This document shows positions 12,404 through 54,841 of a stretch of 64,000 nucleotides of DNA, in pieces. The stretch spans positions 68,504,984 to 68,568,983 of the forward strand of contig NC_057919.1 of the NCBI RefSeq assembly GCF_018873765.1, in the 5' to 3' direction. Every line of letters starts with the position of its first letter. Position 1 is the first letter of the stretch. This stretch comes from Telopea speciosissima. Its lineage: Eukaryota; Streptophyta; Magnoliopsida; Proteales; Proteaceae. The position numbers and the translations under genes were made by a program. The notes beneath the pieces were generated by a model. The model searched no databases. It saw only the letters and a list, made by a program, of their open reading frames with translations, and was not told the origin of the DNA.

Positions 12404-14216
12404 GAAATTTACACGTACGTCCCCTGAGGTAAGGGTTAATTACAGAACCACCCGTGAGTTTTGGATATTTATGCGTACCTCCCCTGCTCTCCAAAATAAT
12501 TAGTAAGTAAACCCACTCCGTTAGTTGCGAACAGTAAGAGTTTGTCATTTTATGACCAATATAGCCTTGATAGGGTAGAATGACATTATTGTCCTTCTTC
12601 CTGGTTTGGAAAGGAGGTGAGGAGACTTTCTGGATCTCCGTTTTGGGTGCTCTTTAGTTGGAATCAACAGGCCACGGGATTCCTCTTCCACCTTGCTGAT
12701 CTCTCTATCACTCGACTGCCCTATGCAATTCACCAGCCCTGCTCTGTCCATCGCCCTAGGCATCACACCCCTGCCAGTTGCACCATCGCAACAAGCCGGT
12801 GTCATCGCGCCATGGCACCATCGCTCCAAGCTTCAGCTGTCCAAACTTCACCCCAACCTTGTGAGTAACCCCTGCATCTCCCAAAATCACCAGCCCCTAA
12901 ACACTGTTGCCTCATTATCTGCGATCTGCACCCAGAACCCCCACCCTACACTGCCGCACTTCACCCTGCATCAACTCTGCCCGCCTCACCAAGCCCTACC
13001 AGACAACGTGACCTACCTGCGTTAAATTGTGATCTTAGAATCTCCTGCCTCTGCCTCATCCTGAAACACCAGCCTGACGGATTTGAGAGTTGAGATTGTT
13101 TCACAAGCTACATCTCTGTTTTCAAGTGAAGAAAGCTCCCTTTGCAATTTAAATTCCAGAATTCTTTTAGCTTCGACTATATGTCGAAAAGAAACTAGGG
13201 TTTCTCTGTCGCTGAGATAGCTGGTAAGCATCATCATTTTTTGGCCATAATTACTGCAAGAAACATTTTCTTAGGGTTTAACAGTGGAGTATCTGTTGTT
13301 GAGTTCATGCAACTTTTTAGCATTTATGGGATTGAGTGATTGTGTTAGAAGCTTTGGATTTGTTGTTTTTTTTTCTGCCCCTTCTTTTCACTCCTTGCTC
13401 TGGGTTTCATTGATATTTGAATAATTCTTCTATTTAGAAAAAGAAAGAGTAGGTTGTTGGAAGTTCGATTCTTTTGATACATGTATCATGATGTTTGGGT
13501 GTAAATGATATCTGTTTGAGTTTTGTTTCTAAGCATTGAAAGAGGTTACTGTGAAGGATTGATGTATTTGGAGGATGTTGTGCTGGAATGTAGCTCCAGT
13601 TTTGGGTTGCTTTGGATGAAAAATCATTTCTTTTTGAGATTTTTTTTTTTGTTTTTTGTTTTTTGGGTGTGTTTGAGAAGGCTTGTGAATGAGATGTGGA
13701 ATGGCTGTGATATTTTAGAATCCAACCATGTCCCAGGCATCTCTTCCCAACTGTCTCTTTCATCTTAATAAGAACCATAGCACTAATCTCCTCTGGAACA
13801 AGTTTCATGTTCTTCTACACTTCTTTGTCTTCAAACCTGCCAATACATAAGTTAGTTCTCTAAATGTATGCTTCGAAAAAAATGATAAATACAAAAGTCA
13901 GTGGTGAGCTCTTTGATCGGATTGTGGCGAGGGGACACTACAGTGTGTAGTGGTGAATGTGGCCTGGACAGGGTCTGAAGTTGTTAGGATGTGCGATGAT
14001 CAGAGAGTCATGCAGAGACCTTAAATTCTAACATTTGTAGCAGGAAGGGCAATTTGGTCAATATATGATAAGTTCTAACGCTTTTAGTCCCAGGTTAATG
14101 GAGTGGGTTTACTTACTAATTATTTTGAAAAGCAAGGGAGGTACATGTAAATATCCAAAACTCACGGGTGGATCTATTATTGAGCCTTACCTCAGTGGAG
14201 GTACTTGTAAATTTCT
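12404..14216. mobile_element. Long-TIR DNA transposon, Mutator-like, non-autonomous
   Basis: Terminal inverted repeats of about 145 bp: the left arm 12404-12548 (AAATTTACACGTACGTCCCC, then ACCCGTGAGTTTTGGATATT, then AATTAGTAAGTAAACCCACT) recurs inverted at about 14070-14216. The 1.5 kb interior has no transposase. It has a GC-richer stretch (12600-13020) full of Pro/Ser/His-like codons and a 13020-13240 block resembling a host 5' UTR or exon with a donor site, so a captured host fragment is possible. No 9 bp target duplication could be confirmed next to the T-rich left edge. Assignment to Mutator rests on the long TIRs. Confidence 0.65.
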
Positions 14217-50744: not shown

Positions 50745-51389
50745 TTAAAGGATTGAGATCTCTCTATCGATATCAGTATGTGCTTGGATCGGTCAATTTT
50801 ATTCTTACTTTTCATTGAAAATAAAAAAATTTACAATTTTATCCTTGATTTGATACCAATACCGATACCGATACTATTATCGGATTCAAGATTGACTAGG
50901 TATCAATATCATTTCGGCCGATCCAATATTGATACTTTAATCCATACCACAGACTAGATGTCCAGTGCCTTAAATAGACAAAGCTAGAGAAACTTTTGCC
51001 TTGTTCATTCAATGATTGATTTTTCATTCACCGAAAGTGAAGTGACCATTTTTATTGGTGTTGAACAAAGGGAGTCTCTGAATGACAAGACACCTCTCTA
51101 AGTATATTTAGAGCTTGACATTCTTTTATTTGCCTCTTGTTTCATTCCCAAAAGATCATTATTATAGGTACATAAACTAGCTTTTAAAATAACCTGAAAG
51201 TGATATATCATTATGTCATTATCAAAAAGAGTTGTTGTCGTGCATATTTTTTCGAATGAAATAACACTATTATCTTTATTGGAAAAAAAAATTTGTATCA
51301 TATTAAAACGGCAAAAAAATAAGATTACAAAATATTTGACACTTTAAGGCAACATTGACACTTCGTACAATATTTACCAAAAAACAAAA

Positions 51390-53168
51390 GATTAAATACA
51401 CGTACCCCCTGTAATGCACCCAATATTCCTCGTACCCCCCTAAGCTTCTAATAAGTCCACATACCACCCCTCAATATTTCACGTGCCACCCCTGCTTTAC
51501 CCCCCTAAAGCCATTTAAGTCCACACCAAATGTTAAATGCTAAAAATGACCAAACTACCCTTCTTCTATCCTTTCTAAAATTTGAAAAGACCTAATTACC
51601 CTGATCTATTTGCTAAAATTTGAAAATACCAAGATGCCCTCATCTTCCCCAAATCATTATCTTCTTTTACATACCCAATACCATTGCCGCCACCACCACC
51701 GCCACCCACCAAATCAAATACTAATTCCTAAACTTGGAGTTCTGGACCTTTCGATCAATAACCTGGCTTCAAGAAGCTACGGAAGCTCAAGTATCTCGAC
51801 ATCTCAACCTGCAACATTTCAGGGAATTCGAATCTCCTATCCAACCTTCTCTCGTTGAAATACGTCGATGTATATGAGAATTCCATGAACGGTAGCTTCC
51901 CTTCTGATTTCCCTCCACTCGATAATCTCAAGTATTTGAATGTCTCAGTAAACAAGTTCACCGGTCGAGTAGACCCAGATAAAGTTAAGAGATTCGGTAA
52001 CTCAGTTTCATCAAGACGAGGATTTTCAATGCTTCAAAGGCCCTAAATCCGATAATTCGAACTCATCCAAGAAAAACTGTCCCTCCCAAATCCCCCAGAG
52101 AACACCACCAACCTGGGGTCCAAAGCAAGAAAAAGAAGAAACCCAATTCAAAACCAAAAGCTCTAGTTCTGGGTTCAATCATTGCAGCTACTTCAATCAT
52201 CTTCGCCATGGCTGTGCGCATAGCCTGCTTGTATAGGAGAAAGAGAGCGAAAAGAAAGCAATGGGTGATCTCAAGACCGACTTACTTAGCAATTAAGATT
52301 GAGAAATCAGGGATGTTTCATTCGAGACCGAGTCAGGGACATGGGTAGCAGACATTAAAGAACCATCGTCGACGCCGGTGGTGATGTTTGAGAAACCGTC
52401 GATGAATCTGACATTTATGGATCTGATTGTGGCCATGTCTCACTTCGGAAAGGAATCGCAACTTGCAGAAGGGAGAGGTGGGCCTGTGTACTCGGCGGTG
52501 TTACTCGGAGAAATCCATGTTGCCGTCAAGGTAGTGGAGAAGAGTAGAGATGTCGCCCTCGAAGATGCCGTGGCATTGTTCCATTATCTTTCTCGGCTAA
52601 AACACCCTAACATCCTTCCTCTTTCCAGTTATTGCATTGCAGGTACTATAATTTTTAAATTGTAATTCATTCTTTTGAGAAAAAAAAATTAGCTTCATTC
52701 TTCTTCCACCAATTCTATTTATTAAAATGGATTCATGGGTTCCGACACCGTCGACGTCACAATCCAACGGAACTGGCGGATCCCAGAATTTCTGCAATGG
52801 AGGTGGTGCTGGAGGTGGGGCTTCACGGTGGTGATGGTGTTAATGGTGGGTGGTGGTGGTGGTGGTGGTGGTGTTATTGGGTATGTAAAAGAAGATAATG
52901 ATTTGAAGAAGATGAAGGCATATTGGTATTTTCAAATTTTAGCAAATAGGTCAAGGCAATTAGGTCTTTTCAAATTTTAGAAAAGATAGAAGAAAGGGTA
53001 GTTTGATCATTTTCTAGCATCTAACACTTGGTGTGGACTTAAATGGCATTAGGGGGTAAAGCAGGGGTGGTACGTGGAATATTGAGAGGTGGTACGTGGA
53101 CTTATTAGAAGCTTAGAGGGGTACGAAGAATATTGGGTGCATTATAGGGGGTACGTGTATTTTACCCC
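51390..53168. mobile_element. Pack-MULE-like element carrying a receptor-kinase fragment
   Basis: Inverted terminal repeats of about 300 bp: 51390-51715 (ACACGTACCCCCTGTAATG, TAAGCTTCTAATAAGTCC, CCATTTAAGTCCACACCAA) returns inverted in 52860-53168 at high identity, down to an inner CAAATCATTATCTTCTTTTA. Between them lies a piece of an LRR receptor kinase (51725-52642). There is no transposase, so it is non-autonomous. Long TIRs plus captured host exons fit a Mutator-type Pack-MULE. A candidate 9 bp duplication (TTCGTACAA at 51364 and TTCATACAA past 53180) would put the ends 20-25 bp further out, but is not certain. Confidence 0.85.
51725..52642 (+). pseudogene. Captured LRR receptor-like kinase fragment (CaMRLK/MEE62-like)
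   Basis: Pieces in several frames are LRR residues LGVLDLSINNLASRS and LKYLNVSVNKFTG, then a membrane segment LGSIIAATSIIFAMAVRIA followed by LYRRKRAKRK (about 52166-52262), then the kinase N-lobe 52378-52642 with [40 protein letters not shown] and [16 protein letters not shown]. These match the order of plant receptor kinases like At5g45800 (recognised from memory). The copy stops at a splice donor (GCAG/GTACTA) and continues into intron-like sequence, so it was taken from genomic DNA. Stops and frame changes between blocks, and the loss of the catalytic lobe (no HRD/DFG), make it a pseudogene. Confidence 0.87.
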
Positions 53169-53287
53169 AAAAAAAAGGGCATTTCATACAATGAGGGTAG
53201 AAATTATGATGGCCCAAGAAATCTCTTCACCTTTCTCCTTCATTTATTATTGTAGTTGAAGGTTGGAGCTTCAGTTTGGTTCAACTC

Positions 53288-53991: not shown

Positions 53992-54841
53992 CTAAACGAG
54001 ATCATGAGCAGTTACGAGGACGTCGTCCCACAGCCAAAGTCCATCACCCACTCCATCCCAATGATCTTTAGTGCTCACCTCCGATTCAGAAGACTCGGGA
54101 GGTAGACCCAGAAGCGATTCCAAGCTTGAAATCTGCTCTTTTATCTTCAGCTCAGCATCCTCGCTCGGTTTAGTTACTACTTCCTCTTTAAATGCCGCCG
54201 GCGGTGGTGGCTCTGTTAAGCCCTTCTCGCCATACTCTGGTTCCAGGCAGCGCCGCTTGGCAGGTGCGGCAACTGGAACAGGTGGAGGTGGTTGTGGTTG
54301 ATAAGGTGGTTGTTGTGGGAAGTTCAGCTTTGCCTTATCACCTCGGATTCTCTTTGCCGCTTCGTCATATGCCATGGCAGCCTCTTCGGCGGTATTGTAA
54401 GTGCCCAGCCAAACACGAACTCCCTTTCGTGGGTCGCGCGTCTCAGCCGCCCATTTGCCCCATGGTCTCTTCCTGATGCCTCTGTATATATTCTTCCTAA
54501 CTTTTGCTCCTCCTCTTCCTTTCTCGCTCTTTCCTTTCCCAGCATCTGATGCTTCTGCAACCGAGTTTGTCTTTTCATTTTTCTCAATCGTTTCTGCCAA
54601 AAGAAAAAGATCACGTTAGAAATTCCACATTTAGAAACTCCAGAAACTATATTAACTCACCTTCGGTTCGTTGCTTGGGCTCATCGGCTGATTTAAATTC
54701 AGTGGAGCAGTCGTCTTTTTCACCGAAATCGAAGCCGAGGAGATCGGAGATGGCTTCGAATTCCGATAAGAGGTCTTCCTTCGTCAGCTTCCGGCCATGT
54801 TTTCCGGCGATAAGCTCGGAGATGATTGCCCCTCCACACAT
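53992..54841 (-). CDS. Group VII ERF transcription factor, RAP2.3-like
   Basis: Exons 54661-54841 and 53992-54593 on the minus strand, intron 67 bp, 260 residues. Begins [20 protein letters not shown], the oxygen-sensing N-degron with Cys2, followed by an acidic [12 protein letters not shown] segment. The AP2/ERF domain is at about residues 96-154 ([49 protein letters not shown]). The N-terminal RKLT and [21 protein letters not shown] resemble Arabidopsis RAP2.3 (EBP) more than RAP2.12. A Pro/Gln-rich linker follows, then a C-terminal [15 protein letters not shown] and an acidic-aromatic DGLWLWDDV likely to activate transcription. ATG at 54841 chosen because it gives the N-degron. Same strand as the ERF at 43678, but sequences outside AP2 differ, so this is not a recent tandem copy. 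Confidence 0.95.

Follow-up and report, generated by a model that had tools for sequence, protein, structure and literature searches.

Examination of a 64,000-bp stretch of the Telopea speciosissima genome (C4:68504984–68568983 of the 823-Mb genome), referred to below as the window, revealed at 51389–53167 a Pack-MULE, i.e., a non-autonomous Mutator-like element, which is 1779 bp long and encloses part of a host gene as a single colinear segment. Comparison with relatives elsewhere in the genome makes it very probable that a Mutator-like element captured DNA of a leucine-rich repeat (LRR) receptor-kinase gene, that the reading frame of this cargo was lost, that the cargo was moved in trans to at least five places, and that later exchanges of cargo left a scrap of receptor intron behind. 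The first-pass annotation, made from the letters of the window alone, had proposed a Pack-MULE-like capture of an LRR receptor kinase at the DNA level, a proposal borne out by the terminal arms, by the parent gene on C2 and by an intron retained unspliced.

Structure of the element

The element is described here on the plus strand, in the sense of the captured gene. Near-full-length copies of it occur elsewhere, and its ends were placed by aligning it with related elements, the majority of which carry perfect 9-bp target duplications; the best ends, 51389 and 53167, are each one base off the 51390 and 53168 given at first pass. The left terminal inverted repeat (51389–51711, plus strand) was delimited by arm alignment and tip comparison, and the right one (52844–53167, minus strand) by arm alignment. 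When 51394–51711 was aligned with 52844–53162, the 320 aligned columns showed 91.25% identity and a score of 494, the top score among 200 shuffles being 34. Inverted repeats of about 300 bp, predicted as very similar, are thus present with a length of about 320 bp, but their similarity had been overstated. This length is within the 100–500 bp range of Mutator long terminal inverted repeats. The right tip matches the family form GGGTWAARTACACGTACCCCC, and the left tip has two altered bases at its end relative to that form.

Carrier sequence adjoins both junctions of the cargo. On the left (51712–51724, plus strand) it reaches the junction at 51724/51725, and the 26 carrier bp preceding this junction recur in loci L020 (26/26) and L021 (25/26), both of which are without the receptor exon. 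On the right, the junction at 52798/52799 is followed by a subterminal sequence (52799–52843, plus strand; GGAGGTGG...) which comparison of carriers revealed to be common to many of them. The interior consists of these carrier ends and the receptor cargo, and it has no transposase of its own.

Parent gene and captured segment

The interior at 51725–52798 was colinear, at 88% identity, with an LRR receptor-kinase gene at C2:66430566–66432806 (66.43 Mb; locus L009), which the element query matched without arms at C2:66431225–66432343. The intact parent with the same intron, which the first-pass annotation had presupposed, was found in this uninterrupted gene: its 1399-bp exon 1 is separated from exon 2 by a GT-AG intron of 225 bp that contains a stop in frame, and its conceptual spliced reading is open over 672 codons. 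The domains confirmed in it are LRR and kinase only; the name CaMRLK/MEE62 is that of the first-pass annotation, and orthology to this gene (At5g45800) is putative. In the translation of the predicted kinase (L009:4064–6307, minus strand), what we take to be the HRD and DFG motifs read HGH and GFG; the kinase of the parent may be atypical or inactive.

The cargo amounts to 1,116 bp of the parent, comprising 936 bp of exon 1 followed, without splicing and in one colinear piece, by 180 bp of the adjoining 225-bp intron. Because the intron is unspliced, it was DNA that was captured. After deletions, the copy in the window retains 918 bp of the exon piece (51725–52642, plus strand), which covers LRRs, the membrane segment and the kinase N-lobe, and 156 bp of the intron piece (52643–52798, plus strand), both as delimited by alignment to the parent; the deletions in the exon piece are of 16 bp, 1 bp and 1 bp, and the frame is broken. 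The splice donor GT at 52643 opens the intron piece. The capture, which had been described as ending exactly past this donor, does run into the intron, but its end is 156 bp farther on. A 21-bp indel adjoining the donor is common to all five copies that carry receptor cargo. The GC content was 0.470 in the captured exon, 0.477 in the whole gene and 0.434 in the uncaptured first 463 bp.

Copies of the capture and decay of the cargo

A genome search with the element as the query gave 103 matches; of 1721 candidates only 40 were scored, and match counts are therefore to be read as lower bounds. At least five places carry the receptor cargo, namely the element in the window and four more, the one on C9 being split into two pieces. 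Perfect 9-bp duplications were found for the copies L002 and L003 and for the C9 copy, the last one read from its flanks. At a later time, about 10.7 kb inserted into the C9 copy (C9:50427073–50437732); this insertion is bounded on each side by a direct repeat of about 1.7 kb, the two being 97.3% alike. In a tree of the five copies with the parent as the outgroup, for which the right C9 piece was used and the left one left out, the C5, C11b and C9 copies were grouped with 95% support and the remaining nodes were weak.

Over the captured region, the Kimura two-parameter (K2P) distance to the parent was 0.067–0.086 for the four unsplit copies and 0.061 and 0.078 for the C9 pieces, and the distance among the receptor-cargo copies was 0.029–0.070. 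Arm similarity is no clock in DNA transposons; the view that the capture is not ancient, drawn from that similarity at first pass, therefore does not follow, and it is not upheld by arms differing by about 9% or by the distances of the copies from the parent. If each site changes at 1.3e-8 per year, the rate for rice, a copy-parent K2P near 0.085 would correspond to about 3 million years, and slower tree rates would make the age greater.

One 1-bp deletion, which shifts the frame, is common to all five copies, and a stop stands at parent codon 347 in four of them; the shared deletion shows that loss of the reading frame preceded the spread of the copies. The 86 substitutions confined to a single copy are distributed as 26, 27 and 33 over codon positions 1, 2 and 3, and 31 of them are synonymous and 55 are not (neutral expectation 30%, p=0.24). 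Another 34 differences from the parent, common to the copies and unpolarised in direction, include 14 synonymous and 20 non-synonymous ones (p=0.19). Coding constraint on the receptor cargo was not detected by the codon positions and synonymous share of private changes in the five copies. Taken with the shared frameshift, this lack of detected constraint indicates that what moved was a dead fragment, and a protein function of the captured piece is not likely.

Carrier family and candidate source of transposase

The arms proved to belong to a dispersed mobile family and not to a larger host inverted duplication, the circumstance that would have spoken against a capture. A 32-base tip pattern, allowing up to 3 mismatches, had 323 matches in the genome and a second tip pattern had 494, the reversed patterns giving 0 in both cases; the sets of 323 and 494 may overlap. 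Target duplications were compared in 16 elements, a set that leaves out the C11b copy (L004), the split C9 copy (L013 and L014) and L028. The 9-bp duplication was perfect in 10 of the 16 (one being a T-run), had 1–2 mismatches in five, the copy in the window included, and had 6 mismatches in one. Thirteen of these elements are without receptor cargo; they are 1.0–2.0 kb long, and the receptor exon is present in none of them. The duplications of L029 and L047 are also perfect at 9 bp.

The family carries other host sequences as well. L019 (C2:29742129–29743099) and L031 (C5:10888192–10889161), belonging to the same carrier family, have in common a protein-kinase fragment that is 93% alike, and the fragment in L019 is 93% identical to the armless L050 (C5:58448227–58448997), a probable parent whose open frame spans 388 aa. 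Judged from these alignments, L019 and L031 are a second capture, another Pack-MULE type of the same carrier family. A piece of a FAR1 DNA-binding domain is contained in L023.

At C1:78959856–78967840, an element of about 8 kb (L047) has family arms at both ends and the perfect 9-bp duplication TTAAATTTT, and contains the domains DBD_Tnp_Mut (5.4e-18), MULE (2.2e-8) and SWIM (1.1e-6) in two separate reading frames. A GRF zinc-finger frame was additionally noticed in this element. L047 is likely a relative of the transposase source, a candidate MuDR-type element of presumed activity. Two transposases near carrier ends were rejected as the source: at C5:10.89 Mb the element stops before the transposase, and at C1:73.37 Mb one arm was found, at 80%, L047 being the better candidate.

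Receptor-intron scar in other elements

A 29-base sequence across the receptor intron and the adjoining carrier was found, with up to 3 mismatches, at 33 genome sites (reversed control, 0). Grouped by position, these sites make up 23 elements, of which five carry receptor cargo and 18 do not, the same-strand sites C2:62962235 and C2:62963726 being counted as one element. Upstream of the junction, receptor homology extends over about 31–80 bp at the 28 non-receptor sites (local alignment, approximate extents) and fills the entire 280–284 bp read at the five receptor sites, three of which have a 34-bp deletion within the tail. In the window this intron tail, delimited by the junction and tail searches, occupies 52725–52798 (plus strand), and bits of it are retained at the same junction in the 18 elements without receptor cargo. 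The 40-base core of the tail occurs at 18 genome sites, one of which is the receptor intron itself; it alone is unpaired with a carrier junction or an opposite copy. The core sites C6:343036 and C6:344369, which are outside the 33 junction sites, face each other in an arm-like manner.

The junction is present on both sides, facing inward, in nine of the 18 non-receptor elements. The arms of L024 and L029, with the tail included, are about 460–480 bp long, and in L017 the tail is present on both sides, the arm alignment ending short of it. In a daughter subfamily, the terminal repeats now apparently include the receptor-intron scrap. The simplest history of the scar would be capture from the receptor, followed by repeated truncation and refilling and by arm-to-arm copying. 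We lean, with some reserve, toward a wider interpretation, in which the receptor capture founded a lineage that swapped its cargo repeatedly via subterminal sequence; the intron scrap of 31–80 bp would have been held at a fixed junction and copied to the opposite arm, would now be a host-derived terminal-repeat module of the daughter subfamily, and the order of captures would be readable from nested scars.

Proposed history and alternative explanations

In the history that we propose, a non-autonomous Mutator-like element would have copied 1,116 bp of the gene at C2:66.43 Mb between its own terminal repeats as genomic DNA, with gap repair or a template switch during replication as the probable mechanism. 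The frame of the cargo was lost ahead of the amplification, as the shared frameshift shows, and a MuDR-type transposase, of which a candidate element was found, would have acted in trans to move the element to at least five places. There the copies drift, and no constraint on coding is detectable. In subsequent rounds of repair, most of the receptor cargo would have been stripped from daughter elements and other sequence inserted, while 31–80 bp of intron scrap stayed beside the terminal repeat; the inward junctions on both sides of nine elements were observed directly, and they would represent a host-derived extension of the repeat under the order of events presumed here.

Several observations weigh against this history. 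The flanks of the copy in the window, AAAAACAAA (51380–51388) and CAAAAAAAA (53168–53176), are possible decayed target duplications identical at 7/9 positions and are of low complexity, and since the match lies within A-runs the duplication is to be regarded as decayed or ambiguous; the flanks of the C11b copy are T-runs and little informative. The private changes of the copy in the window, taken alone, fall 6, 4 and 13 on codon positions 1, 2 and 3 and so lean to the third, a lean that is absent when all copies are taken together. As for the scar, the reading covered both terminal arms for four of the nine two-junction elements (L017, L024, L029 and L051); among the 18 non-receptor elements, it covered loci of 3–8 kb for six (L017, L024, L029, L030, L042 and L051) and about 370 bp around each junction for the other 12. 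In addition, the GC content of the 74-bp intron tail is 0.50 versus 0.26 in the 106 bp of intron preceding it, the last 45 bp of the parent intron lying outside this measurement.

This GC difference leaves room for a transfer in the reverse direction, in which the tail was originally Mutator sequence that entered the receptor intron as a fragment and later provided the homology for copying the adjacent exon. Such an order would accord with the presence of tail pieces in 18 elements without receptor exons, and two receptor genes of about 40% identity appear to read through the intron position (one having 1443 bp for 481 aa), so that the intron is not universal; these genes, however, are distant paralogues. 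We consider a reverse transfer unlikely, given that no terminal-repeat sequence was found in the 9.9-kb parent locus and that it costs one event more than a simple capture; the varied tail lengths also fit truncation of a longer captured piece, although they discriminate weakly. That the fragment is functional, being kept for its protein or regulating the parent via antisense or small RNA, appears more doubtful still. As many as 220 of the 1054 21-mers of the cargo in the window are identical to the parent, with a longest identical run of 71 bp, the splice donor GT persists in four of the five copies, and rice Pack-MULE transcripts and small RNAs are described in the available text of PMC8277862. 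However, identity alone explains the shared 21-mers, a single deletion breaks the frame of every copy, and the private changes are without detected codon constraint. A regulatory effect on the parent via putative small RNAs is possible. Least probable, to the point of being negligible, is a retroposed (processed) receptor copy that lies between inverted repeats unrelated to it, or an inverted duplication of host DNA: no supporting point was found, the intron is retained, and the same arms enclose other interiors elsewhere, with perfect 9-bp duplications.

Neighbourhood of the element

The left flank of the element, used as an empty-site probe, had no long match but itself, except for a dispersed repeat of about 280 bp. 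This repeat is located at 51067–51349, just left of the element, and has 72–76% identity to 39 places among the matches listed. About 0.8 kb from the right end, an open frame at 53992–54600 (minus strand), its 3' end toward the element, resembles an AP2/ERF transcription factor by its translation. Another inverted-repeat element, at 12404–14215 (12404–14216 in the first-pass annotation), has 120-bp arms that are 88% complementary. At first pass one carrier family had been suggested for it and the Pack-MULE, a suggestion not supported beyond a short tip motif (TACACGTAC..CCCCTG): BLAST pieces between the two were 15 bp or shorter, with that motif alone in common. Of 500 block shuffles, 5 to 20 equalled the tip-motif score, which leaves a distant tie possible but does not establish a single family.

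Significance and comparison with known systems

The Pack-MULE described here is resolved well: the parent gene and the two junctions were located, five copies and a relative with transposase domains were found, and traces of the capture persist in later elements. The way in which such elements acquire cargo is still unsettled, and one fixed junction with many truncation points can be read as a record of successive repair events. For annotation it is a warning that six loci resemble the receptor and a single uninterrupted gene is among them. The element itself is a clear but ordinary example, and the interest comes from the traceable scar. Nothing on it was found among the papers listed for receptor-kinase Pack-MULEs and their small RNAs (a paper on lectins) or for Mutator-like elements in Proteaceae (the lotus genome paper).

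Pack-MULEs are already well known, and the traceable scar is the new part. Like those of rice, Arabidopsis, maize and tomato, the present element has long terminal inverted repeats, 9-bp duplications in its family, a host gene fragment with its parent elsewhere, and several copies; unlike them, its cargo is the middle of a gene, extends into an intron and is not markedly GC-rich. Long arms and duplications of 9–11 bp are given as Mutator hallmarks in the available text of PMC3310237, according to which acquired sequence may also be incorporated in extended terminal repeats of Mutator-like elements (Ferguson and Jiang 2012, PMC3310237). The arms of L024 and L029 with their receptor intron tail are similar to the tandem or extended terminal repeats described in that portion of the paper, whereas in the present case the extension can be assigned to a source gene, and what remains of it was traced to 18 elements with other interiors. 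For animal Pack-TIR elements, the available portion of PMC8277862 describes capture in trans and subsequent transposition to several copies, as proposed here, in another superfamily and another host; in our case the capture step is deduced from sequence. The same portion presents gap filling and replication switching (FoSTeST) as models of capture and terms the origination mechanism of such elements perplexing, and acquisition by fusion between neighbouring Pack elements is described in the available part of PMC8903248.
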